From the NCBI GenBank assembly GCA_017962765.1, contig JAGCUP010000113.1, positions 1-36,577 of the forward strand: a stretch of 36,577 nt of DNA, in the 5' to 3' direction. Positions 389-25,458 of the stretch are shown piece by piece. The notes under the pieces were generated by a model. The model made no database searches. It was given only the letters and a program-made list of their open reading frames with translations, and was not told the DNA's origin. Source of the stretch: Muribaculaceae bacterium (GTDB taxonomy: Bacteria > Bacteroidota > Bacteroidia > Bacteroidales > Muribaculaceae). Each line of letters begins with the position of its first letter. The stretch's first letter is position 1. A program made the position numbers and the translations under genes.

Positions 389-3300
389 TTACTTGTTTTT
401 GCCTATAAGTTTTATCTTTTGTCCCATGACTTCGCTGATAGATGGTGCGATTTCTCCCACGGTGGTAGTGGGAACATTCACTTTTTCGAAACCCTCGCCA
501 ATGTAAGCATTATGTGCAAAAGAATTGCGAATGTTTATAGCTTCGCTTTCTTCTTTCTCCGAAAATAGTTTCGCATAAGCAAGAAGTTGGCTGAAACTGG
601 TCCTCTTGGCTTTGTTTTCACCTTTGTCATCGTAATAATAGTGGGGTGACATTTTGTCATGAAGCTCCTTGTGCCGTTCAAGTATGAGCCTTTCGATTCG
701 ATGGGCGTTCTCGAAGACATCAAACCTGACACGGTCGTATTTTTCAAATTCTTGCTCCAAGTCGTTACGGTCAATGTCAAGCGAAACGGCGTTTTCGTCA
801 TCGACAAGGTAAGGAATAAGTGTCTCGATGCGACTGTCGAACAAGAATCTCAAGAAATCGCCATAGTTTTTCAGTTTGATGGCTTGTTGAGAGATTTTCA
901 CAGGGATGTTGCTGCCCTTGATGTGTAGCGTGATAGAGAAGGGCACACTGATTTCGAGAGCGCTGATTCCTTCTTGTCGCCTGATGGGCTTAATGTTTTT
1001 CAGCTTGAAGTGTGCAAAGCTATTGTCGAGCATATTTTCATTTTTATTGAATAAAATGTGCCGCGCCATCAAGAAAATAATAATATCTTGAACCTTATAA
1101 CGTCTAATGAGTCGTTCGGTTGACTTCATGCAGTGCAGGGCGCGTGAAAGAATTTGTATCTCTTTCTCCTTGTCGGCATTGCTCACCACTTTTTTCAAGT
1201 GCATAGATACCAGTCCGGTAGGCTTGCTGTTACCATTCAGGAGTGCTGTCATCAACTTGTTTTGTTGTGATGCTGTGAGTTTGCGTAGTTTTTGTGATGT
1301 ATTGATGATGTCTTTGATGCGTTGTTGTTTGTCAAGCGCCGGGTTCTTAGCCAGAGATTTTGCAAGTTTCTTGTTGACTTCCTCAATGCCTTCCCCAATA
1401 ATTTTGTTGTCATCGCACGACAAACCTGCTGTCTCGGAAAGCATTTGCAGCGAGGCGTCGTTGCGCAAAATATTGTCAATTTCGCTTATGGTCTTGCCAT
1501 AGTCGTCTTTGTCGTTGGTGCGGTGCTGCAACAACTTGAAGAAGCCGTAATACCGCTTGTAATTATCTTGCGGTTGAGTGTAAAATTCTTGACTGTCGTC
1601 TTGATATAGTCTTTTAAAGTGTTTTGCTATCAAGAAAGAGACATTGGCATCATCTCGCTTGTCGCCTTGGATGAAATTCTTGTCATATTTGTATTCAAGA
1701 ATTTTTTTGATGTGTGGCTCAAATAGCCCACGAGGCAATTCAACGGGCAACTCAAGGTATGCCTGCAAGAGTCGCTCATGGAAGTCGTTGTCGCGCCGTG
1801 CCCATTTGTTCTTACCGCGCGTGAGGAAAGGTAAGTTCTTTAAGTTGTCGAGTGGCAAGGAACGAAGCCATTTGACTTTTACCTCAAGATATTTCTTATA
1901 GAAAGCGGCAGTTGATGAGGGGGCGCTGTTAATCACCTCCATCAAGAATGGATGTGCGTCGTCGTGCATGATAAGATGGGCCGAAACCAAAATCCTTTTT
2001 ATTTGCTCAAGGCTGGTGAACATCGACAGGGCCGATTGAAGTATTTGGAAGTTCAAACCAGTGAGCTTGTTACCAGCCGAGGGGGCGGGCTGCATAGCGA
2101 TGATGTCATGAGCCAGCCAATCGCCTAACTTGCCCGGCTTGATTTCGACAAAGTGGCTTTTTCCGCGCTTATTGCGCTCATCGGCAACTTGTTCAAGGTC
2201 GCGCATGAACCGCTCTAAACGTTTCTCGGTGGCAACGATGTGCTCCTCTAAACGGCTCTGTAGCTTGCTGATAGCCTTGTTTTCATCATAAGACGCGCCC
2301 GATAGATAGTTTTGCAACTTTTTGGGAAGATGGCGGTCATAATCAATTCCCAAGGCAGCTGCTTCGTTACGGGCATTATTGCCGTTGATTTCGCCTGTGA
2401 TAACTTTGTCAATGAACTTTTTAAAGCCAGTTGCGAAATTTTTGATTATTTTTTCTTCACCCGGCAGCGCCAACGATTTTTTAGCATTGTCATCGACTGC
2501 ATTAAAGAGGAGATGATAAAAGATGAGAGCCGGAAGCTCATGCGTGCTCATGAAGCATTTGGGGGGCGTGAGAGAAACGATTTGTTCTCCATTTTTCTTC
2601 CGTTCCCTTAAGTCTTTGGCTTGAGGTGAATCGATGAGTTGGGGCAGTCCTGGCCTGGGGTCATTGGGGCCTGCTTTCCAATATAACCCAATATGGTTGT
2701 TGTTGATTAAATAGGAAGCGTGATGATCGGTGATATAAGGTTCGGAATCGGGGGTGTCGGCTTGGACGTCCTCGAAGTCTCTAATGAGTGGAGCCCATGT
2801 TTCGACACGTTGCTTCTCGATTTCATTAAGTCTCCCAAATCCGTGCAATTCTTTCTGGAGTGAACGCACATGGGATTGTCCTTCGGCAATTTGTCCGTCG
2901 ATGCACTTTTTGTCATAAAAGGCAAATCGATACGTTCCCAATTTGACTTGAAAACGAATGTCGCGAAAGATTTCTTGCTGGTCAATGAATTGTAAAGCTA
3001 ACTGCGGAAAGCGGTCGGAGTGTCGCACCATGAGGGTGGTATTCAAGTCGTCATCACTTTTTTCTTCGCTGCGGAACAACTTTTGGTCATTGGGACATAA
3101 GAGGTCAAATAACTCCAGTGGGCAACGTTGCAATTCGTTCACCATGTCGAGTGCAAGTGCGGTGGAGTTCTGAACACTCTCATATCGCATGCGAGGCAGT
3201 TTTATTCTATAAACTGCTAATGACTCAAAGATGATGCTGCGGCGTTTAGTGGTTTTTAGGTCGCCGTAGGTGTAAAACGCTTTAGTTTTAGCAAGCATTT

Positions 3301-3943
3301 CACCGATGTATTTCTTTTCGAGAAATAATGAAATGAAGCACAAAAGTCCACGCAAAGAGAACACGTTTGAGGGCTTGTCGTCTTTGTTGGAGATGAGTTC
3401 CTTTTTGTAGAGACTGTACTGGGAATTCTCTCTGCCCATTTTGTTGTTCTTAATGAAAGACATTTCGTGTTCGCTATAGTTGAATCGCTGCTGCACAGTG
3501 CGTAAAGCGGCCTTGTGGAGGTCCTTGATACAACTTACAAGACTCCGCTCATTAAGATTGAGGTTGAAGAATTCGTTCTCTTCATCTGAATCGTAATGGG
3601 TGGTATAATTGCGGTAGAAATTTAAAACCTCATTTACCTTGGGTAGGATAAAGCACAAAGCATCAACCTCGTTTGTGGCCTTCCCTGTGGAAATGACGGT
3701 ATCGGTCATCGGAGCTAAGAAAGGGAAGTGGCGCCTAAGTAAAGTGCAAATTTTATCTTTCTTATCGGTATGAGTTTTTTTCGATTTGAGGTTGTCGAGG
3801 ATGGTGTTAAAAGGATTGAAATCATTACTGTCTTTGCCCATCCCCAGGCATTTGCAAATGTACTCAAAAGTCATGAAGAAATTATGCTGGGCCATATTGC
3901 AGTAAGCCGCATAAACGTGTTTGTTTTGATTGATTTGTACCAT
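389..3943 (-). CDS. cas13b: Cas13b, type VI-B CRISPR RNA-guided RNase
   Basis: The product is an RNA-guided RNA-targeting effector that processes its own crRNA and cuts target and collateral RNA with two HEPN domains. The proposed 1184-residue protein starts at the ATG at 3943 (MVQINQNKH); the longer frame back to 4039 starts with TTG and adds a cysteine-rich stretch unlike the family. Both HEPN RxxxxH motifs are visible: RNYTTH at about residues 111-116 and RNSFAH at about 1139-1144, the same layout as characterised Cas13b (R116/H121 and R1177/H1182 in the Bergeyella enzyme). Other family-like segments are the KLPRMR region, the DRFPQLALQFIDQ region and the KLKNYGDF segment near the C-terminus. 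Length fits Cas13b. The gene is clearly less GC-rich than the core genes to its right, suggesting horizontal acquisition. No cas1, cas2, csx27 or csx28 is seen in the window. Confidence 0.96.
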   Translation of the reverse strand: MVQINQNKHVYAAYCNMAQHNFFMTFEYICKCLGMGKDSNDFNPFNTILDNLKSKKTHTDKKDKICTLLRRHFPFLAPMTDTVISTGKATNEVDALCFILPKVNEVLNFYRNYTTHYDSDEENEFFNLNLNERSLVSCIKDLHKAALRTVQQRFNYSEHEMSFIKNNKMGRENSQYSLYKKELISNKDDKPSNVFSLRGLLCFISLFLEKKYIGEMLAKTKAFYTYGDLKTTKRRSIIFESLAVYRIKLPRMRYESVQNSTALALDMVNELQRCPLELFDLLCPNDQKLFRSEEKSDDDLNTTLMVRHSDRFPQLALQFIDQQEIFRDIRFQVKLGTYRFAFYDKKCIDGQIAEGQSHVRSLQKELHGFGRLNEIEKQRVETWAPLIRDFEDVQADTPDSEPYITDHHASYLINNNHIGLYWKAGPNDPRPGLPQLIDSPQAKDLRERKKNGEQIVSLTPPKCFMSTHELPALIFYHLLFNAVDDNAKKSLALPGEEKIIKNFATGFKKFIDKVITGEINGNNARNEAAALGIDYDRHLPKKLQNYLSGASYDENKAISKLQSRLEEHIVATEKRLERFMRDLEQVADERNKRGKSHFVEIKPGKLGDWLAHDIIAMQPAPSAGNKLTGLNFQILQSALSMFTSLEQIKRILVSAHLIMHDDAHPFLMEVINSAPSSTAAFYKKYLEVKVKWLRSLPLDNLKNLPFLTRGKNKWARRDNDFHERLLQAYLELPVELPRGLFEPHIKKILEYKYDKNFIQGDKRDDANVSFLIAKHFKRLYQDDSQEFYTQPQDNYKRYYGFFKLLQHRTNDKDDYGKTISEIDNILRNDASLQMLSETAGLSCDDNKIIGEGIEEVNKKLAKSLAKNPALDKQQRIKDIINTSQKLRKLTASQQNKLMTALLNGNSKPTGLVSMHLKKVVSNADKEKEIQILSRALHCMKSTERLIRRYKVQDIIIFLMARHILFNKNENMLDNSFAHFKLKNIKPIRRQEGISALEISVPFSITLHIKGSNIPVKISQQAIKLKNYGDFLRFLFDSRIETLIPYLVDDENAVSLDIDRNDLEQEFEKYDRVRFDVFENAHRIERLILERHKELHDKMSPHYYYDDKGENKAKRTSFSQLLAYAKLFSEKEESEAINIRNSFAHNAYIGEGFEKVNVPTTTVGEIAPSISEVMGQKIKLIGKNK

Positions 3944-4010
3944 AGCGAAATATTGTTGTGAGATTAATTCAAGACATAAACTGCACGTCTTGTGGGAGCA
4001 AGCAAAGAAA

Positions 4011-4169
4011 TTATATTTCACTTGCAGACAATTTCTCAATGAGGGTTTTCATCAGTGTGGTTTTGCCAGTATCGGCATAACCTTTAAGTATGAATACCTT
4101 CGTTTCTTTGTCGGCAAGGAAATCTTCCATTCTTTTAAATGTCTCTTGTTGCTCAATGCTTAGCCCCAT
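4011..4169 (-). pseudogene. N-terminal stump of a P-loop ATPase/helicase
   Basis: A 52-codon frame begins MGLSIEQQETF and carries a clean Walker A motif, GYADTGKTT, at about residues 30-38. It then stops at TAA 4011-4013. The start resembles the N-terminus of RecD-like or AAA-type ATPases, in which a short helix precedes a GYAGTGKTT P-loop, but no Walker B or later motif follows. It ends 67 bp before the cas13b start, on the same strand. The likeliest reading is the 5-prime end of a larger ATPase gene cut off when the Cas13b module was inserted or rearranged. A short expressed peptide cannot be excluded. Confidence 0.55.
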
Positions 4170-4358: not shown

Positions 4359-4757
4359 GGGGCTGACTTGGATTTGACAGCGTGTAGAGGTGGTGGGCAA
4401 GCATGCAGAGCGATGATGGCAATGCTCTCGAATCTCAGTCATCGACTAAATTTAACTGGCGAAAATACTTACGCTCTTGCTGCCTGATCGAAGCACAGTA
4501 GATCAGCTTAATCGCTGCCCAAGGCGGTAGCGACAAGACATCACCCGACAGCCCTATCCGCGAGGCTCGTTGAACCGGTGGTGCTCGCAAATCGGGGATA
4601 GATGAAGGCCTGTCTCGAGCCTTAATCGAAGTTTAGAGGCTAAGCCGTTGGTTGGTAGTCCCGAGCCTGCCCGCGGTCGAAAAACAAGTCAGGACTAAGC
4701 ATGTAGAAAACCCATTAGTTCCGCGTTTGGACGAGGGTTCAAACCCCTCCAGCTCCA
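4359..4757 (+). ncRNA. ssrA: tmRNA (transfer-messenger RNA)
   Basis: tmRNA rescues stalled ribosomes and tags the unfinished peptide for degradation. The 5-prime end GGGGCU (4359-4364) pairs with AGCUCC (4751-4756) as the tRNA-like acceptor stem, with A4757 as discriminator; CCA is not encoded. The T-arm sequence GGGTTCAAACCCC precedes the 3-prime end. The tag reading frame starts with the GGC resume codon at 4458 and reads GENTYALAA followed by TGA (4485-4487), a typical Bacteroidetes tag ending in ALAA. It is a single-piece tmRNA with its own promoter and terminator. The accessory cas13b island lies immediately on its 5-prime side, divergently oriented. Confidence 0.97.
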
Positions 4758-4766
4758 CAACCCACA

Positions 4767-6828: not shown

Positions 6829-7851
6829 TTAGTAGTTGTAGCCGTCGTCTTCGACCACTTCGTCGGTTCCGTAGGCGACCCTGTCGTCTTCGGCGGGAGC
6901 TTCTACCACTTCGGCAGCTTCTTCGGCGGGTTTTGCTTCTTCGTCGTCGTAGTAACGGCTATCGTAGTAATCTGCGTCGTCGGCTGCCTCAACGCTTTCG
7001 GTTTCGAAGCCGTAGTCGGTGTCTTCGTAGTTGTTATAACTGGGGGTCGACGTGTTGTTGACGACGAACACGATGACGGCAATGGCGATGGCTACGATAG
7101 CTGCCACAATGATGCCGATGATAATGCCCGTGTTGCTCTTTTTGGGTGGCGGTGCCGATTGCGGGTCGCTGAAGGGCATCGACGGGTCGCTATAAGGCAT
7201 GGACGGGTCGATGGGGTTGCCGTACTGGTCCACCATGGGACCCGTGGCGGGGTAGCCCGTGGCGGGTATCGCATCGTAACCCGTGGGATAAGATACGGGC
7301 GTGCCATCGTAACCCATCGACTGGGGTGCGGACTGATAGCTGCCGGGGGCGGGGATGGGGGGCATCCCGCCAGGTTGCGAGATGGGTGGCATGGTGCCGG
7401 GTTGTGAGATAGGTGGCATCCCGCCGGGTTGTGAAATGGGGGGCATGCCCGGTCCCACCGTGGTGGGTAACCCTGTGGAGGGTTCCGGGATTGCCGTTCC
7501 CGAGAATCCGTCGTTCTGGGCAGGTTGCAGCCATTCACCGCAGAAGCGGCACTTGCGGGCCACGGCAAGTATTTCCTCGCCGCAGTAAGGGCATCGCATG
7601 GTGGCTTGCTGTCCGTCCGCAGGTTGTGCGGCTGGTGTGGGCTGTTGGGCTGGTACTTGCTGTTGCGCTGCTGCTACTTGTTGCAACAGCGGTTGCAGCT
7701 CTGGCACATCGCTGGCTTTCATCCAGTTAGCCGAGCCTTGCCACCAGACGAGCGCGTCGGGCACGAGGCCGTTTTCCACCAGTTGGTTGATGTGGTAGGG
7801 TCCCAGCTCCACGTTGTTGATGTTCATGAAAATTTCGGCGTTCTTGTCCAT
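6829..7851 (-). CDS. GYF_2 domain / zinc-ribbon single-pass membrane protein
   Basis: The function is unknown; the 340-residue architecture is clear. Residues about 5-55 form a GYF_2-type (DUF4339) domain, with GPYHINQLVENGLV and VWWQGSANWMKASDVPEL. A zinc ribbon with Cys87, Cys90, Cys101 and Cys104 (CPYC...CRFC) follows. Residues 135-170 are a repeat of the ten-residue unit GMPPISQPGG, and the Pro/Tyr-rich region runs to about 235. One transmembrane helix lies at about 241-264. The C-terminal tail is strongly acidic (Asp/Glu/Tyr). GYF domains bind proline-rich peptides, so the protein may bind its own or a partner's proline-rich segment; this is inference. It lies 24 bp after the broken substrate-binding gene on the same strand and may be read through from it. 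Confidence 0.8.
   Translation of the reverse strand: MDKNAEIFMNINNVELGPYHINQLVENGLVPDALVWWQGSANWMKASDVPELQPLLQQVAAAQQQVPAQQPTPAAQPADGQQATMRCPYCGEEILAVARKCRFCGEWLQPAQNDGFSGTAIPEPSTGLPTTVGPGMPPISQPGGMPPISQPGTMPPISQPGGMPPIPAPGSYQSAPQSMGYDGTPVSYPTGYDAIPATGYPATGPMVDQYGNPIDPSMPYSDPSMPFSDPQSAPPPKKSNTGIIIGIIVAAIVAIAIAVIVFVVNNTSTPSYNNYEDTDYGFETESVEAADDADYYDSRYYDDEEAKPAEEAAEVVEAPAEDDRVAYGTDEVVEDDGYNY
7355..7446. repeat. 30-bp tandem repeat coding for GMPPISQPGG units
   Basis: About three copies of a 30-bp unit occur in frame and encode the proline-rich GMPPISQPG[G/T] decapeptide of the GYF/zinc-ribbon protein. Copies differ at a few bases. Copy number could vary between strains without a frameshift. 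Confidence 0.7.
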
Positions 7852-8794: not shown

Positions 8795-10234
8795 TTAGGA
8801 GGGGTTGAGCCAGTTTTTGACCTTATTCACGAGACCCTTGTTGAGGTCTTGGAGGGCTTGCTGCGCGGCGAGGTCGCCTTGGTTGGCGGCACGGGCGTAC
8901 CATCGCTCGGCCACGGTTTTGTTCTGTCTCACGCCGTGGCCGTGGCGGTAACAGTCGCCCAGGCATCGTTGTGCCACGGCGAAACCTTGCTGTGCCGCGA
9001 GGCGGAACCACTTGACGGCTTCTGCCTCGTTGCGTGGCACGCCGCGGCCATTCATAAAGCAGAATCCCAGGGCGATTTGTGCGACAGCGAGTCCTTGTCT
9101 GGCAGCCTGTGCATACCATCGTGCGGCCTCGATGTCTAACTGCGGCACCCCCGTTCCCTGTGAGTAGCAATTAGCCAGGTTGTATTGTGCCTCGGCCAGG
9201 CCTTGATTGGCTGCCATGAGATAATAGCGTGCGGCCAGGGTATAATTCTTCGCTACGCCGTGTCCGCCCATGTGACAGTCTCCCAAATGATTTTGCCCTT
9301 TGGCGTAGCCTTGTTCGGCGGCCTGTGCATACCATCGTGCGGCCTCGACCTTGTTGGTAGGTACGCCCTGTCCGTTGAAGTAGCGGTTTCCTAAGTGGTC
9401 TTGTGCAGCGGCGAGTCCTTGTTCGGCGGCAAGGCGGTACCATTTCACAGCCTTAGCATGGTTGCGTCTCACTCCAATTCCATTGAAGTAGCAGTCACCC
9501 AAATAGTTCTGTGCGCCGACATGGCCTTTCTCGGCAGCCTTGCTGAAAAAGGCGAAAGCTTGAGTGAAATCGCGTTGCCGATAACATTCGCGAGCCTTGC
9601 TCACAATCGCGGGCACCGAAATTGGCGAAGCGGGCATAGCATTGCCTTGTGCTGGCTTCTTTTTGCTTTTCGAGGGTATCGTCTTGGCATGTATTGCTTT
9701 GGTGTTGTCTTGTGCGGGCTTCGTCTTTTCTTGTGCCGGTTTCGTCTTATCTTGCGCCGGTTTCGTCTTATCTTGCGCTGGTTTCTGTTCAACTTGTGTT
9801 TCGGCTTTTCCTTCGCCTTTGACGCCCAACAGTTTGAGGATATGTTTGGGCAGGGTGCTCTCGATGGGGTGCTCGGCGAGGGTGAGGTGGTTGATGTCGG
9901 CGAGTTGGAATAGCAGTTCATCAGGCATGGGGGCGTCGTCGATGAGGTAGGGTAGTATGGCGTCCGACGGCTTCTTACGGATGGCGAAGCTAATCTCTTT
10001 GTTAGTATATTTGGAGCTATAGCTGTTCTTGCTCGCCAAGAATAGTATCAGTTTGCACTCGACGATGGCCTTGGCCAGCACATTGGTGAATTTTTGCCCG
10101 CCACTAATTCCTTTCCGGTCGATGAAATAGGAGATGCCGCGTGCGTCGAGCATTCGGCATATCGCGTCGGCCACCGCCGTGTCTTTGCGCGAATAACTGA
10201 TAAAAACGTCTTTATTGTAGTCTTTTGATTCCAT
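8795..10234 (-). CDS. TIR domain protein with Sel1-like repeats
   Basis: The 479-residue protein starts at the ATG at 10234 (MESKDYNKDVFISYS); an upstream ATG at 10267 would overlap the preceding gene. A TIR_2-type domain spans residues about 8-135: DVFISYSRKD, then GISYFIDRKGISGG, then SKYTNKEISFAI. Glu80 is at the position of the catalytic glutamate of NAD-cleaving TIR domains. Residues 150-195 are a Lys/Pro/Ala/Gln linker built on the heptad KPAQDKT. From about 212 to 465 there are about seven Sel1-like repeats with the GDCYFNGIGV and AVKWYRLAAEQG signatures, a scaffold used for protein contacts. It is last in a three-gene operon, 10 bp after the RyR-domain gene. The family suggests NAD hydrolysis or cyclic ADP-ribose-type signal production triggered through Sel1 contacts; the trigger is unknown. 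Confidence 0.88.
   Translation of the reverse strand: MESKDYNKDVFISYSRKDTAVADAICRMLDARGISYFIDRKGISGGQKFTNVLAKAIVECKLILFLASKNSYSSKYTNKEISFAIRKKPSDAILPYLIDDAPMPDELLFQLADINHLTLAEHPIESTLPKHILKLLGVKGEGKAETQVEQKPAQDKTKPAQDKTKPAQEKTKPAQDNTKAIHAKTIPSKSKKKPAQGNAMPASPISVPAIVSKARECYRQRDFTQAFAFFSKAAEKGHVGAQNYLGDCYFNGIGVRRNHAKAVKWYRLAAEQGLAAAQDHLGNRYFNGQGVPTNKVEAARWYAQAAEQGYAKGQNHLGDCHMGGHGVAKNYTLAARYYLMAANQGLAEAQYNLANCYSQGTGVPQLDIEAARWYAQAARQGLAVAQIALGFCFMNGRGVPRNEAEAVKWFRLAAQQGFAVAQRCLGDCYRHGHGVRQNKTVAERWYARAANQGDLAAQQALQDLNKGLVNKVKNWLNPS
9704..9787. repeat. 21-bp tandem repeat in TIR-Sel1 linker
   Basis: About four copies of a 21-bp unit encode KPAQDKT, KPAQDKT, KPAQEKT and KPAQDNT. The repeat is in frame, so slippage would lengthen or shorten the linker between the TIR and Sel1 regions by seven residues at a time. 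Confidence 0.75.
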
Positions 10235-10244
10235 GTCTACGTAG

Positions 10245-10535
10245 TTATTTCGTGATGGTGAAGCCAAGTTTAAGGATGAGTTTTAGCGTTTCAACACTTG
10301 TGTTGCGGTCGAAGATTTTTTCGGCCTCGGGGAGCTCGTCGTAGGGGACAAGGTCGGGGTGCCGCCGATTGTTGTCGTCGCGTTGTTGCCCGTGGCGCCA
10401 TCCCTGCTCGAGGCGTGTGCGTGCCCACACTTCGTGCACGTTACGCGCCATGTCCTCGACGAGCGGCAGCAGTTCGTCGGGAAGCTTAACATCGCTGGTG
10501 TCGACGGGCGTGGGAATATATTCTTTTTTTCTCAT
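10245..10535 (-). CDS. Small stand-alone RyR-domain protein
   Basis: The 96-residue protein is almost entirely one RyR-type domain (about residues 28-95): VHEVWARTRLEQGW, then DLVPYDELPEAEKIFDRNT and TLKLILKLGF, matching the RyR repeat pattern of a helical W-x-R-x-x-x-x-G-W motif followed by LVPYxxLxxxEKxxDRxT. Bacterial RyR domains have been proposed, from genome-context work by the Aravind group, to sense nucleotides derived from NAD. The gene lies between the Rossmann/RyR membrane protein (37 bp upstream) and the TIR-Sel1 gene (10 bp downstream), so co-transcription is very likely. The inferred role is an adaptor or sensor for a TIR product. Direct ligand evidence is lacking. Confidence 0.82.
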   Translation of the reverse strand: MRKKEYIPTPVDTSDVKLPDELLPLVEDMARNVHEVWARTRLEQGWRHGQQRDDNNRRHPDLVPYDELPEAEKIFDRNTSVETLKLILKLGFTITK

Positions 10536-10572
10536 AAGTTGGCGAGTAAACGAGTGGTTTGTCTTTAGTTAA

Positions 10573-12942
10573 TTAGGAATTAGAAACTATGCCCAAAGTG
10601 ATGTCGACCACGTTATAGTCATAGCTTTGAATATCGGGCGCGAGCTCTTCCCAATCGACGAGGCAGTCGTGCTCGAGGCGGGCTTCGTCGGTGCTCGCCG
10701 CCCATGTGTAACCCAATAGCTCGTGCGAGGCGTTCCAGCGCAGGTGTTCGGTTTGTGCCAGCACGTCGAGCACGCGCGTAATGGCGGTGTCGGGCGTAGT
10801 GCCGTCGGCGTTGTGGTAAGCGATTTCGCTCTCATGCCTCACCAACCCCAGCTGTGGCAGGTTGGCAAACTTTTCATTGCCGAGAGCCTTCTGAGCGAGG
10901 AGCACTTTGGTGCGGGTGTGAAGGCTATTGGCCCTGTTCTGACGCTGGGTGCGCCGCAGTCGCGCCACGGCGGTATAAGTGGGCGCAAATCCTTGCCACG
11001 GGGGGGAGAGCTGCATAAGGTCGTTGAATTCATCGTCCCAGGTCTCCACCTTGTCGGGTGTTTTGCCGTCACGCACTTTCATTGCGTTGAGCGAGGCGTC
11101 GTGACGGGCCTTGAATTGCGCTGCGAGGCGCGTGAGCTTGTCTCCCACGACAATGTCGTAAGTGAAAATGTCCTCGTCGAGCCCGAAAACCACGATGGGG
11201 CTGTCGATTTCGTCATCGACCTTGATGGTGTTCTGGTGGCGCATTCTCTCGCTGGCGATGCCGTGCCGTTCGGCGGCCCACTGGCGGTTGTAATGGGCAG
11301 CGACGCGGCGGGTATGGCACTCGTCGTCGTGGCTCGCGCGCACTAGGATGGTGAAACGGTCCAGATTGTTGCGGTAGCGCACCGCCATCCTGAAGATGGT
11401 GACGGCCAATGAGATGTTGGTTTTGTCATCTTCGGTGGCCAGTACTACATAGTTGAGGGTGGGGAGCTGCGAGCGCAGCCGTTCAAAGAAAGCATCGCTG
11501 TGGCAGTCGTCCTGACGCAGGGTGACGAGCGGCGCGTCGCCATCCTCTGTGTCGCCTGCCAGGGCGGCGTGCATCGCGGGGGCATGTGCCATAAAAGCGC
11601 CCGCCTTGTTCCCCATGTCGATGTCGACCACGTCGCAATGGAATGCCGAGCGCGTCACATGATCGGAGCCACCGCCACTGGCAACAAACGCGCCGTACTC
11701 GTAGAGGAAGCGCACCACTTCCTTGCCATACTCGCCCATGCCCACCACCAGCGAATGGAAGGGTGAGGAAACTGTGGCGTCGGTCTCGACCACGACATGG
11801 TTCACGGGCAGTAGCGCGTCCTGTTGCTTGAGCCATTCGCCGACAAGGCGCGACGAGTCGATGAGCCTCACTTCAATGTGCTCACCGGGCCGCTCGTCTT
11901 CCACTACGCGGTTGAGGCTATTGTATCGAGCGTGGCAGTAGAGTTTGGTGGCTCGGCCCGTGGCGGCGAAAGCTTGCAGGGTGGTGTCGTTCCTAAGGGC
12001 CGAAACGGCATGCAGGTTATATTGCTCGTCGTTGGTGAGAACAAAGAAGTGAAGGTTGCGCGACGTTTTCTTGAGCAGTAGTCGGCTGATGGCCGCGAGC
12101 CGCAAGCGTCCCTTGAGCAGGTCGTTGTCGCCGCTTGAAAGGCTTCCGTCGTCAATCATTGGTAGGCTGGCGAAACAGTTTGCCGTTAGGCATTTGAGTT
12201 CCACAAGGCGCTCAAAGTCCTTGCTTTTGAACGAGAGGAATTTGAGCCACCGCTCCACACCGTTATGCTCTTTGCTGTCATCAATGTCGGCATTGGTCCT
12301 GACCACGACGATTCTATAGTTTTTGTCACCGATGGCATTATGGTGTGCATTGATGTCGGAGGCAAGCCGGTAAGCGGCATTGCTCAGTCCCCAAAATACG
12401 TAGGTCGTAGCGCGGCTGTGCGAAAAACGTGAGGCTTTCAAGAGCCGCAACCCGGCCACGATGCTGTAGCCGAAATACTTGATGACGAAGGCCAAGCTCA
12501 CCAGCGCCGCCAAGAAATGGGCCAGAGCGAAAAACATCATGAACAGCCAGCTGTCGTGAAAACGCTCGTGGATGGCACTCACGTCGCTCTGAAAGAGGAA
12601 CATGAGCGAGGCATGCAGCATAGCCATTGGGGCGTTGCCGTAGAGCGAAGCCCTGTCGCCGGTGTACATGCCCGTGTCGTAAACCATGAAGCCCAGTAGC
12701 CACACGAAGCAGAACGTCCCGAAGAGGTATTTGCTGGCTTTCCTGTCGTGGCTGCGCGCCCATTTTTCCATGCCCCATCTGTTCAGGCCCCACAGGATTC
12801 CAATGCAAATTAGTATCACCAGCATGGCCAGGGCGAAGCTGTATAATCCCATCCACTCAAGGGAATCGGGCAAAATAGCTTTGGAAGCGAATTCCTTGAG
12901 GTAATAGTGGTAATCGAAAAATGCAATGATAATTAATTTCAT
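10573..12942 (-). CDS. Membrane protein with two Rossmann (TrkA-N-like) regions and C-terminal RyR-like domain
   Basis: The proposed 789-residue protein starts at the ATG at 12942 (MKLIIIAFFDYHYY); the longer frame to 13083 adds an unrelated 47-residue leader. Hydrophobic segments lie at about 33-52, 73-90 and 132-158, with a possible short fourth near 105-118, an arrangement that could form a small channel-like module. A first Rossmann-like region begins at about 181 (YVFWGLSNAAYRLASDI). A second starts at about 397 with VVGMGEYGKEVV (a GxGxxG nucleotide-binding loop) and continues with NYVVLATEDDKTN, as in RCK/TrkA-N domains of potassium channels. The last 65 or so residues (EHLRWNASHELLGY to the end) look like a RyR domain. 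It is first of three operon genes with RyR and TIR-Sel1 partners. A nucleotide-gated membrane effector is a reasonable inference; ion conduction is not shown by sequence. Confidence 0.78.
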   Translation of the reverse strand: MKLIIIAFFDYHYYLKEFASKAILPDSLEWMGLYSFALAMLVILICIGILWGLNRWGMEKWARSHDRKASKYLFGTFCFVWLLGFMVYDTGMYTGDRASLYGNAPMAMLHASLMFLFQSDVSAIHERFHDSWLFMMFFALAHFLAALVSLAFVIKYFGYSIVAGLRLLKASRFSHSRATTYVFWGLSNAAYRLASDINAHHNAIGDKNYRIVVVRTNADIDDSKEHNGVERWLKFLSFKSKDFERLVELKCLTANCFASLPMIDDGSLSSGDNDLLKGRLRLAAISRLLLKKTSRNLHFFVLTNDEQYNLHAVSALRNDTTLQAFAATGRATKLYCHARYNSLNRVVEDERPGEHIEVRLIDSSRLVGEWLKQQDALLPVNHVVVETDATVSSPFHSLVVGMGEYGKEVVRFLYEYGAFVASGGGSDHVTRSAFHCDVVDIDMGNKAGAFMAHAPAMHAALAGDTEDGDAPLVTLRQDDCHSDAFFERLRSQLPTLNYVVLATEDDKTNISLAVTIFRMAVRYRNNLDRFTILVRASHDDECHTRRVAAHYNRQWAAERHGIASERMRHQNTIKVDDEIDSPIVVFGLDEDIFTYDIVVGDKLTRLAAQFKARHDASLNAMKVRDGKTPDKVETWDDEFNDLMQLSPPWQGFAPTYTAVARLRRTQRQNRANSLHTRTKVLLAQKALGNEKFANLPQLGLVRHESEIAYHNADGTTPDTAITRVLDVLAQTEHLRWNASHELLGYTWAASTDEARLEHDCLVDWEELAPDIQSYDYNVVDITLGIVSNS

Positions 12943-13028: not shown

Positions 13029-13036
13029 CAAAATTA
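13029..13036 (-). promoter_or_regulatory. -7 box of the RyR/TIR operon
   Basis: The minus strand reads TAATTTTG, a perfect TAnnTTTG box, about 87 bp before the proposed start at 12942. It lies upstream of that start but inside the longer alternative frame (to 13083), which supports the shorter start. No clear -33 element is visible. Confidence 0.5.
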
Positions 13037-13213: not shown

Positions 13214-14401
13214 ATGGCAAAGAAACTGACCGAACATGTGACCTGGGTGGGAAAAGTGGATTGGGAACTCAAGCATTTCCACGGCGAGGAACTGTCGACC
13301 CATCGCGGCACCAGCTATAACGCTTATCTTGTAAAGGACGAGAAAACGGCGCTCATCGACACCGTGTGGGGACCTTACGACCGCGAGTTCGTGGCTCGCC
13401 TCAAGGAGGTCGTTGACCTGCACGACATCGACTATATTGTCATGAATCACAACGAGGTGGACCACAGCGGGGCGCTCGTGGAACTGCTGCGAGAAATCCC
13501 TGGCACGCCCATCTATTGTACGGCGAAGGGCGAGGCTATCCTGCGCGGCCACTACCACGAGGACTGGAATTTTGTGAAAGTCAAGAGCGGCGACACCCTG
13601 TCGCTGGGAGCGCTCACCCTCACCTTCATCGAGGCGCCCATGCTCCACTGGCCCGACACCATGTTCACCCATCTGAGTGGCGACAACATCTTGTTCAGCA
13701 ATGACGGCTTCGGGCAGCATTTCGCCGCCGAATCGCTTTATGCCGACACCGTGCCCACCGAGGCGCTTCTCTACGAGGCCGAGAAATATTATGCCAACAT
13801 CATCGCTCCCTTCAGCCCCATGGCGGCACGTAAACTTAAAGAGCTGGCCGATAGTCCTTTGGCTATTGATATGATTTGCCCCAGCCACGGCCTGATTTGG
13901 CGCAAGGACCTTAATATCATTCTCGAGAAATATGCCCAATGGAGTAATGCCTACCAGGAGAATCAGGTGACCATCATTTACGACACTATGTGGCAGAGCA
14001 CCCGCCTTATGGCCGAGGCTATTGCGCAGGGACTCACCGAGGCTGCTCCCGATGTCACTGTCAAGCTAATGAACGCGGCACTCGACGACAAGAACGACGT
14101 GCTCACCGAGATGTTTCACTCGCGTGCCTTCCTCATTGGGTCGCCCACCATCAATAATGGCTATTCGCATGCCATCGCTGGCCTTCTTGAGATGGCTAAG
14201 GGATTGAAACTCAAGAATAAGAAGGCGGCAGCCTTCGGATCCTATGGATGGAGCGGGGAGGCCGTCAAACAACTCACGGAGCGACTCGCAGCTTGCGGCT
14301 ACGAACTCCTCGACGACGGAATTCGCACCCCCTGGGTGCCCGACAACGATGCCCTGGTCGCCTGTCGTGCCTACGGTGCCGCCCTCGCCGACAAGCTGTG
14401 A
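13214..14401 (+). CDS. FprA family A-type flavodiiron protein
   Basis: Flavodiiron proteins reduce O2 to water and/or NO to N2O in the cytoplasm of anaerobes, protecting them from oxidative or nitrosative stress. The 395-residue length is that of the two-domain (class A) form. The N-terminal metallo-beta-lactamase-like domain carries the diiron ligands: H79, E81, D83 and H84 in NHNEVDHSG, H145 in MLHWPDT, D164 in FSNDGFG and H225 in PSHGLIW. The C-terminal flavodoxin domain starts at about 253 (VTIIYDTMWQST, the FMN phosphate loop) and includes GSPTINNGY and FGSYGWSGEA. All ligands are present, so the enzyme should be functional. It is monocistronic. The electron donor (rubredoxin or other) is not in the window. 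Confidence 0.95.
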   Translation: MAKKLTEHVTWVGKVDWELKHFHGEELSTHRGTSYNAYLVKDEKTALIDTVWGPYDREFVARLKEVVDLHDIDYIVMNHNEVDHSGALVELLREIPGTPIYCTAKGEAILRGHYHEDWNFVKVKSGDTLSLGALTLTFIEAPMLHWPDTMFTHLSGDNILFSNDGFGQHFAAESLYADTVPTEALLYEAEKYYANIIAPFSPMAARKLKELADSPLAIDMICPSHGLIWRKDLNIILEKYAQWSNAYQENQVTIIYDTMWQSTRLMAEAIAQGLTEAAPDVTVKLMNAALDDKNDVLTEMFHSRAFLIGSPTINNGYSHAIAGLLEMAKGLKLKNKKAAAFGSYGWSGEAVKQLTERLAACGYELLDDGIRTPWVPDNDALVACRAYGAALADKL

Positions 14402-24343: not shown

Positions 24344-24363
24344 TTTACCCCAAATTGATTTTT

Positions 24364-25458
24364 ATGGAAATGTGTCAACAAAGAGAATACCGGTTCAACA
24401 ACTCGACGCTTGTTTTGAAATTCGGCGACATTGTTGAGAGCGATGCCGATGTGCTGGTGAGTAGCGATGACTATTCGTTGCCCATGGAGGACGGGCTTGC
24501 GCTCTATCTCCTTGAGAAGGGTGGTCCCGAGATTAAAGTCGATGCCGACAAAATGAGCGGTGCAGAGCTAGGCGATGTGGTCGTTACCACAGCCGGCCGG
24601 TTGCCGCACAAATACATTTTCCATTGTGTCACGGTAGCCCCCGACGAGCATTTCGGCAACACGGCCGAAGAAGCGCAAGAGGCGATGCGTGGCGACATGG
24701 AGGAATATGTGATTCGCCACGCCATTGCCAAATGCTTCCGCTTGCTTGCCGCGATGGATTTGAATTCCATCGCTATTCCGTGCATCGGCGTTCGTCGTGC
24801 CGGCTTCTCGTTTGAGCGAGAAGGAATAATCATGTCGGAGGTGATTTCCGAGTTCTTGCTCAGGACAAATAAGGTGTTCCGTGTGGAGCTCTGCTTGTGG
24901 AACAAGGAGGATCGTTTCACCATGATGGACTATATCGCTTTCTTCGAGCAGTTCGCCTTGCGTGTTCCCACCCGCGACACAAGAGCCGTAAAGCTCCCTG
25001 CGATAAAGGTTGTGGCTGATGGCGAAAGCGCCCCGCAGGTTGCTCACGATGTGTTTATCAGCTATTCCCATGAGGATCGTGAGACCGTCGAGCATATTTG
25101 TGGTGTGCTCGACAACTACGGTATCTCTTATTGGATTGACCGTGATGGAGTGCGCCACGGCGACAACTTCAAGGAGGACATTGTTAAGGCCATCGCCAGC
25201 TCCATGATTTTGCTGTTCGTCTCTTCGGCCAATTCCAATAAGTCGCCTAATACCATTAAGGAGGTGGGGGTAGCCGAGAATTATAAAAAAATCACGCTTC
25301 CAGTAAAAATAGACAATGAGCCGTTTTGCCAAAGCCTGCAATATGACTTGTGCAACCGCCACTGGGTCCAGTTCGACATCAATGACTTGGAGTCCTTTGG
25401 CCGCGAGTTGAACGATAACATACGTTTCCATCTTAACCGAAAAACCAACAACCCATAG
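24364..25458 (+). CDS. Macro domain-TIR domain fusion protein
   Basis: The 364-residue protein starts at the ATG at 24364; the frame extends to a TTG at 24355. Residues about 12-180 form a macro-like fold: LVLKFGDIVESDADVLVSSDD (the GDIT...DAIVNAAN strand), GAELGDVVVTTAGRLPHKYIFHCV, then AIPCIGVRRAGFS before the last helix. The NAAN loop and GGGVAGAI-type glycine loop are replaced (SSDDYSLPMEDGLALYLLEKGG), so a binding rather than hydrolytic role seems likely. Residues 228-350 form a TIR_2 domain: HDVFISYSHEDRE, GISYWIDRDGVRHGDNF and NTIKEVGVAENYKK, with Glu300 at the catalytic position. Macro domains bind ADP-ribose derivatives, and NADase TIRs make them, so sensor and producer sit in one chain. 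It lies directly behind mazG; a strong stem-loop follows. Confidence 0.82.
   Translation: MEMCQQREYRFNNSTLVLKFGDIVESDADVLVSSDDYSLPMEDGLALYLLEKGGPEIKVDADKMSGAELGDVVVTTAGRLPHKYIFHCVTVAPDEHFGNTAEEAQEAMRGDMEEYVIRHAIAKCFRLLAAMDLNSIAIPCIGVRRAGFSFEREGIIMSEVISEFLLRTNKVFRVELCLWNKEDRFTMMDYIAFFEQFALRVPTRDTRAVKLPAIKVVADGESAPQVAHDVFISYSHEDRETVEHICGVLDNYGISYWIDRDGVRHGDNFKEDIVKAIASSMILLFVSSANSNKSPNTIKEVGVAENYKKITLPVKIDNEPFCQSLQYDLCNRHWVQFDINDLESFGRELNDNIRFHLNRKTNNP

Follow-up and report, generated by a model that had tools for sequence, protein, structure and literature searches.

A candidate nucleotide-signalling operon of TIR-Sel1, RyR and RCK-like RyR membrane proteins in a Muribaculaceae bacterium

Introduction

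Thoeris defence systems combine a TIR protein, ThsB, with an effector, ThsA, which is a SIR2-SLOG protein in type I and a Macro-TM protein in type II; the type II effector, like the one described below, is reportedly a membrane protein. Here we analyse a stretch of 36,577 nucleotides from a Muribaculaceae bacterium (assembly GCA_017962765.1, contig JAGCUP010000113.1; “the window”), in which a TIR-Sel1 protein is encoded together with a small RyR protein and a membrane protein, called MEM here, that ends in an RyR domain. This operon appears to follow the plan of a TIR signal plus a sensor-effector with other parts, apart from Thoeris. Judging from sequence comparisons, we give an even chance to the reading that the three genes form a nucleotide-signalling module, most likely anti-phage, in which the TIR protein would make the signal, MEM would be the sensor-channel and the RyR protein a second unit.

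RyR domains have been connected to such signals through phage proteins, which bind, and in one case also cleave, the cyclic ADP-ribose (cADPR) isomers 2'cADPR and 3'cADPR (PMC13232231). Binding is reported in that 2026 preprint for RyDEP plus six of eight homologs, and the RyDEP residues named are Q54, H75, W78, H100 and D117. In the human ryanodine receptor, the same pocket of Repeat12 (R12) lies between two repeats and accommodates AMP-PCP and ADP (PMC12627627).

Results

Operon and products

The three genes lie on the minus strand and are transcribed in the order MEM, RyR, TIR-Sel1, with gaps of 37 bp and then 10 bp. Their features are as follows.

10573..12942, minus strand: MEM, membrane protein of 789 amino acids (ATG at 12942, stop codon ending at 10573)
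12439..12840, minus strand: membrane region of MEM, amino acids 35-168 (Kyte-Doolittle scan, sequence and alignment)
11689..12408, minus strand: starts of the two Rossmann/RCK-like regions of MEM (alignments; homology to the MEM2 subfamily)
10594..10785, minus strand: C-terminal RyR domain of MEM, pocket H733/W736/H758/D775 (Pfam 6.8e-4; family profile 1.3e-19)
10245..10535, minus strand: stand-alone RyR protein of 96 amino acids (Pfam PF02026, E 2e-35, full length)
8795..10234, minus strand: TIR-Sel1 protein of 479 amino acids (ATG at 10234, stop codon ending at 8795; Pfam TIR_2 and Sel1)
9872..10207, minus strand: TIR domain of TIR-Sel1 (codon of the catalytic Glu80 at 9997-9995)
8824..9640, minus strand: Sel1 repeat region, limits approximate (Pfam Sel1, 7 stretches), after a repetitive linker of the KPAQDKT type

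The mechanically called open reading frame (ORF) of TIR-Sel1 begins at TTG 10267; ATG 10234 was used as the start. Pfam places TIR_2 (5.7e-19) and Sel1 (1.5e-62, 7 stretches) in this protein. Glu80 is present. In the window and the 36 loci used below for gene order, 18 TIR domains accompany MEM or its sister subfamily, MEM2; 15 of these were aligned, and all 15 have Glu in the catalytic column. PADLOC models for ThsB matched the protein at 2.3e-9 and weaker, and NCBIfam ThcB4 reached 47.5 bits, below its cut-off of 220. Against solved structures the TIR domain showed a weak likeness to Roq1 (E 0.008) and SpbK (E 0.013).

The stand-alone RyR protein matches PF02026 at 121.3 bits and matched nothing in PADLOC or NCBIfam up to E 1. 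The C-terminus of MEM reaches 20.3 bits (E 6.8e-4), by itself below the Pfam cut-off of 27.4 bits, and relatives of MEM exceed that cut-off (L080, 28.5 bits; L037, 31.9 bits). A 17-member profile, made of 16 MEM proteins and one MEM2 protein, matched a solved RyR chimera at 1.3e-19 and PDB entry 3nrt at 2.8e-9, and a profile of 26 MEM proteins matched solved RyR at 9.4e-19. Because the family profiles match solved RyR structures, we take the C-terminal RyR domain of MEM to be real. A preliminary description of this DNA had proposed three genes spaced 10-37 bp apart, an RyR-like domain at the end of the membrane protein, a stand-alone RyR protein and a TIR-Sel1 protein with its catalytic Glu in place; coordinates and strand agree with it, and all of these elements were recovered.

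Ligand pockets of the RyR domains

The letters named for RyDEP are found at those positions in its sequence (DyoEdafos GenBank record), and the spacing of H75, W78, H100 and D117 (0/3/25/42) is identical in both RyR domains of the window. The counterparts are H34, W37, H59 and D76 in the stand-alone protein and H733, W736, H758 and D775 in MEM. All four residues stand at identical spacing in 27 of 27 MEM sequences, the window's included, at identities to the window MEM as low as 21%; they are also invariant in the MEM alignment. Of 28 distinct RyR proteins encoded separately in the same loci, 21 have the full pocket; in those incomplete ones whose stretch was read, Thr or Asn replaces the second His. 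Six of the eight MEM2 proteins keep all four residues, and in MEM2 the loop between W and the second His is longer.

That the pocket is most strictly conserved in MEM fits MEM as the sensor, and 27 of 27 in MEM against 21 of 28 in the separate proteins makes the small RyR protein look accessory more than a sensor. The preliminary description had read the set as producer, sensor and membrane effector, analogous to Thoeris in logic. The Thoeris-like logic with other parts survives; the division of sensor and effector is changed, since MEM has its own RyR pocket and would thus be both in one chain. In favour of that description, both RyR domains of the window carry the residues with which phage RyDEP binds 2'/3'cADPR (PMC13232231).

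Viral RyR ORFs largely preserve the pocket: the four residues are kept in 75 of 80 (the best 80 of 215 confirmed). Nine viral contigs (L114-L122) encode RyR proteins 49-60% identical to bacterial ones. None of the 80 viral stretches with RyR contains a TIR or a MEM gene, and on this ground the RyR proteins of L114-L122 are probably phage sponges against this type of system.

These relatives bear on another role for the small protein. It could be a brake that, in the manner of phage RyDEP, sequesters or hydrolyses the TIR signal and so prevents self-toxicity of TIR and MEM, the channel being the sole effector. Besides the probable viral sponges, the presence in the window RyR protein of the positions of the RyDEP catalytic dyad (H34 and D76 for H75 and D117) speaks for such a brake. 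However, hydrolysis of the signals was seen with none of the eight further RyDEP homologs assayed, although they conserve the residues (PMC13232231), and RyR stands by MEM in many loci without a visible TIR gene, a pattern that fits a subunit better than a brake on the TIR product. A brake is thus possible and, in our judgement, doubtful.

Membrane part and RCK-like regions of MEM

A Kyte-Doolittle scan gave hydrophobic segments near amino acids 35-53, 69-91 and 136-168 of MEM, with a semi-hydrophobic stretch before the last. A first Rossmann/RCK-like motif lies near amino acids 179-196 and a second (VVGMGEYG) near 397-418, in which G401 and G406 are invariant in the alignment. On the window MEM alone, Pfam TrkA_N reached only E 0.12, which is not significant; MEM profiles matched no channel in the PDB, and PADLOC/NCBIfam up to E 1 returned for MEM only KwaA (0.057) and SecDF (0.081) or worse.

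The relation to RCK proteins comes through MEM2. The MEM profile aligns over 130-737 with 90-682 of MEM2 (probability 99.2, E 1.4e-19), from the last membrane helix through the RyR domain. The MEM2 protein of L046 matches Pfam Slo-like_RCK at 2.1e-8, above the cut-off; those of L095, L096 and L098 fall just below or below it, and those of L097, L030 and L031 gave no RCK match at the limits used. A profile of eight MEM2 proteins matched MthK at 4.4e-4, covering TM1, pore, TM2 and the start of RCK, and DMI1 at 0.0019; its match to 4gx0, which we take to be the GsuK channel, was not significant (0.092). A profile of four MEM2 proteins matched DMI1 at 0.0055 and KCNT1 at 0.0065. Direct RCK/TrkA homology of the window MEM was considered and set aside as too weak, and is retained only in its indirect form through MEM2. 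Two TrkA-N-like Rossmann regions had been described for this protein; that assignment is not significant for the window MEM alone and is supported only by way of the homologous MEM2.

Distribution and gene order

MEM is patchily distributed, which fits defence. Matches occur in 18 of 149 genomes of the family (16 convincing, the window's own included), in none of the nine other same-genus genomes listed, in 25 of 393 genomes of the order at 1e-10 (14 strong, own included) and in 1 of 395 genomes of a phylum sample, the window's own. The MEM2 profile found 0 of 395 in that sample, a null without a positive control. No MEM was confirmed in viral contigs in three pattern-based scans or in a first scan of genome contigs, and MEM had no match among plasmids and phages.

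Proximity was counted at 29 strong MEM loci. An RyR gene lies within 5 kb of MEM in 19 of 29 MEM genomes and a TIR gene in 10 of 29, the window's being one of the 29, where uniform placement would give 0.14 and 0.25, respectively; the TIR enrichment is about 40-fold. Five weak loci, found mainly via the RyR end of the profile and hence biased for RyR proximity, were kept apart. Left out were the fragmentary G004 and G112 (family), the weak G322, G348, G447, G480, G494 and G522 (order), four TIR rows (two second domains of a counted ORF and two fragments) and eight RyR rows inside MEM or MEM2.

Gene order was read in 36 MEM or MEM2 loci besides the window, with mechanical ORF starts. Three of them (L029-L031) were found through RyR and are hence biased, and L042 and L043 are near-identical; L027, L028, L047, L048, L085 and L093 stand outside the 36, being fragments or having no MEM that passed the limits. 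Of the 36 loci, 25 have a same-strand RyR gene (22 of 33 once L029-L031 are set aside), 13 have a TIR gene (12 of 33), and 10 have MEM or MEM2 with both RyR and TIR (9 of 33). Neither neighbour was seen in eight stretches (L032, L038, L040, L045, L079, L089, L091 and L092), some at contig ends; in L079 an RyR gene cut by the contig edge was missed through the ORF length limit and is visible in the RyR search. In many loci the MEM and RyR ORFs overlap, given their mechanical starts. The arrangements with a TIR gene include the following; in L083, L097, L035, L090 and L094 the parts share one strand, and several of these loci have overlapping ORFs.

L083: MEM, RyR, TIR-Sel1, the order of the window, in a different family of the order; its MEM shares 24% identity
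L097: MEM2, RyR, TIR, in a third family
L035: MEM, RyR, TIR, with a longer RyR protein
L090: TIR, MEM, RyR
L094: MEM, TIR, RyR
L033: MEM, TIR-Sel1
L034: MEM, TIR
L046: MEM, MEM2, SIR2-TIR

The counts make MEM plus RyR the core pair, to which TIR is a frequent, non-universal third gene. Since the arrangement recurs in other genomes, it is not a product of chance or of assembly. The preliminary description had asked for conserved co-occurrence of the three genes, and the counts and the recurring order in other families provide it. An attempt to find an empty site used the divergent flavodiiron-type gene next to the operon, present in 15 of 21 genomes of the genus, the window's included; at the 14 other loci the neighbours within about 1.5 kb varied and were unlike those of the window, and no comparison site was obtained.

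RyR, MEM and MEM2 in other neighbourhoods

PADLOC was run on selected neighbours in four loci (L034, L046, L081 and L094). About 1.2 kb from the MEM-TIR pair of L034 there are matches to type I modification, specificity and restriction subunits, a set whose presence beside MEM fits defence. Elsewhere, genes for PrsW and M48 proteases adjoin MEM or RyR, and TPR, ankyrin and MutS-like genes also stand beside them in some loci.

A Priestia plasmid (L214, 656-5282) carries a PycTM effector gene, two genes without assignment, an annotated cyclase with TPR-S, and RyR; the cyclase is annotated as adenylate/guanylate, Pfam found only TPR-S in it, and a TIR gene is nearby. This is an RyR gene in a Pycsar-like locus of Bacillota. 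In Methylobacterium, a 910-amino-acid protein has a C-terminal RyR domain and a weak AAA match, with a very long gene of the SIR2 family on the far side of a transposase gene. The two other plasmid RyR neighbourhoods examined had no gene annotated as TIR or cyclase. These few cases suggest that RyR may serve conflict systems in general as a module for handling nucleotides.

Several variants of the neighbourhood were also seen. A MutS-like gene (MutS_V 8.2e-27) directly follows the RyR gene and the RCK-RyR membrane gene in L096 (5849-10168), and in L098 (6245-10654) a gene of similar size and start takes its place. L036, L035, L082 and L095 encode proteins of 320-380 amino acids with RyR in the C-terminal part and, between this protein and MEM or MEM2, an ORF of 185-213 amino acids that, on visual inspection, resembles a sigma factor (in L036, DUF1492 scored below its cut-off); some variants perhaps have a transcriptional output.

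The neighbours and the distribution help to weigh two further readings. MEM and RyR could be a housekeeping ion or energy sensor, responding to ATP/ADP with RCK-type gating, with TIR genes nearby for other reasons. The adenine nucleotides bound by human R12 (PMC12627627) and the protease, TPR, ankyrin and MutS-like neighbours would suit such a sensor; the patchy presence, with MEM absent from the nine other same-genus genomes listed, the TIR enrichment and the occurrence of RyR in other conflict-type loci, such as the Priestia cyclase/PycTM run, make it unlikely. Alternatively, the TIR protein itself could be the effector through NAD+ (nicotinamide adenine dinucleotide) depletion, like SpbK, with MEM and RyR serving as an upstream sensor or regulating the damage. 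Its catalytic Glu, its weak structural likeness to Roq1 and SpbK and the fact that SpbK is an NADase (PMC12847820) are in keeping with this, but a ligand-binding RyR domain on a channel-like protein would then be superfluous, and most MEM genomes show no TIR gene close to MEM; we hold this reading to be quite improbable. Chance neighbourhood without shared function, for which the variety of partner genes alone could be cited, is rejected as exceedingly improbable through the recurrence of the same order in another family at 24% MEM identity, the overlapping ORFs and the strong enrichment.

Context in the window

The window is a single contig of a 210-contig assembly that is 83.6% complete, and MEM occurs once in the assembly. 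Upstream of MEM, the divergent flavodiiron-type gene (ODP and flavodoxin domains) occupies 13214-14401. The two-part Bacteroides promoter consensus had no match upstream of MEM, and one short candidate was noted.

13029..13036, minus strand: candidate promoter TAATTTTG upstream of MEM (weak evidence), matching what we take to be the Bacteroidales -7 consensus

Downstream of TIR-Sel1 lies a short solute-binding-protein ORF (8691-8119, minus strand; SBP_bac_3 1.1e-10, residues 6-95 of 132), which may be truncated. A protein with GYF_2, a zinc ribbon and an internal hydrophobic segment is encoded at 6829-7851 (minus strand), and zinc-ribbon-like sequences, judged by eye, also occur near RyR genes in L033. 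An ORF of 1216 amino acids (389-4039, minus strand) has no significant Pfam match and lies in a stretch of lower G+C content (about 42-47%); it adjoins a transfer-messenger RNA gene (4359-4758) and is possibly foreign DNA. Further away, a Macro-TIR fusion protein (24355-25458, plus strand; Macro 2.7e-13, TIR_2 2.6e-20) is encoded directly 3' of a MazG gene and possibly combines a TIR enzyme and a reader of ADP-ribose in a single chain.

Discussion

If the operon works as its domains suggest, the Sel1 repeats of TIR-Sel1 would detect infection and the TIR domain would use NAD+ to make a signal of the ADP-ribose type, such as 2'cADPR, 3'cADPR or a related molecule. MEM would be both sensor and effector: its C-terminal RyR domain would bind the signal in the H733/W736/H758/D775 pocket, the RCK-like regions would transmit binding to the membrane part, and this part, gated in that way, would open as a non-classical channel, conducting ions until gradients dissipate and growth stops. 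The stand-alone RyR protein may pair with the RyR domain of MEM, rebuilding a two-repeat clamshell and setting the threshold of the sensor. We propose this pairing because RyDEP forms a homodimer and animal R12 carries both of its repeats on a single chain (PMC13232231, PMC12627627); it would explain why MEM and RyR occur together without TIR and why free RyR proteins can lose a residue of the pocket. The fullest version, in which cyclic ADP-ribose made by the TIR protein acts through an RyR domain to open an RCK-type channel directly, a second RyR completes the sensor and phage RyR proteins are sponges, is offered tentatively and falls short of an even chance.

Several observations weigh against the proposed signalling module. 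MEM has no TVGYG-type K+ selectivity filter in its sequence, so any pore would not be a classical K+ pore; neither MEM nor MEM2 matched TrkA proteins significantly in profile comparison, and the window MEM looks like an RCK-gated channel with an RCK homology that is indirect, via MEM2. There is no TIR gene within 5 kb in 19 of 29 MEM genomes, some of whose contigs are short, and the ligand there is perhaps not TIR-made. Because AMP-PCP and ADP are the ligands found in human R12, the pocket residues indicate an adenine nucleotide, not cADPR alone (PMC12627627). Seven of the 28 separate RyR proteins are without the full pocket, and in the best matching operon (L083) the second His of the RyR protein is replaced by Thr. 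The MEM2 proteins of L029 and L031, 86% identical to one another, have Gln and Asn for the His/Asp dyad. Finally, the only defence gene seen in the window besides the operon is the Macro-TIR fusion, 11-14 kb off, in a window of which PADLOC covered four proteins.

The L029 and L031 proteins may themselves be binding-only or altered-ligand sensors.

The RyDEP preprint reportedly has an author in common with the group behind the Yirmiya survey. In the parts consulted it mentions no host RyR effector (PMC13232231), and among the literature matches listed there was no description of a bacterial TIR/RyR/membrane operon, which the Yirmiya 2025 survey of TIR systems and Burroughs 2015 could contain.

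With producer, ligand, sensor and channel encoded side by side, the operon would be a small testable system. If the proposed signalling module is right, TIR immunity would gain an effector of the channel type, the close RyR copies of phages would have an explanation, and the RyR domain would have a bacterial context. In animals, it has long been debated whether ryanodine receptors are a direct target of cADPR. The RyDEP preprint raises this question as well (PMC13232231), and the cADPR-RyR pairing debated in animal calcium release would here appear as a self-contained bacterial operon.

Comparison with known systems

RyDEP belongs to the same PF02026 family as both window RyR domains, which share its pocket residues and their spacing. 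RyDEP is a phage counter-defence protein, whereas here a bacterial operon encodes RyR twice, as a separate protein and as the end of a membrane protein, and the RyR genes of the window sit in a bacterial assembly between bacterial genes, unlike the phage-encoded RyDEP.

MthK, 4gx0, Slo/KCNT1 and DMI1 have a membrane part followed by Rossmann/RCK regions, a layout that MEM probably shares, and MEM2 aligns with MthK from TM1 to where RCK begins. MEM differs from these RCK-gated channels by its added C-terminal RyR domain and its lack of a TVGYG filter, and the homology of the window protein to them is indirect.

Repeat12 of the animal ryanodine receptor is likewise an RyR domain with the same pocket residues on an ion channel (PMC13232231), and it binds an adenine ligand in a two-repeat cleft (PMC12627627). 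The channel part is unrelated, however, and MEM has a single RyR repeat plus a separate one-repeat protein.

PDB entries 3nrt and 4n05, putative ryanodine receptor proteins, are single RyR domains of about 100 amino acids like the stand-alone protein, and a Bacteroides thetaiotaomicron protein of this kind is a structural match of RyDEP (PMC13232231). They have been described as structures; the window RyR protein stands in an operon.

Thoeris is matched in that a TIR protein stands beside an effector with a predicted sensor of ADP-ribose signals. The three proteins lack SLOG, SIR2 and Macro domains (Pfam up to E 1), and none of them matched ThsA in PADLOC or NCBIfam; instead, the operon has an RCK-like plus RyR protein as its proposed effector, an extra stand-alone RyR protein and Sel1 repeats on the TIR protein. 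It is not a member of Thoeris; it is Thoeris-like in logic, with a different effector.

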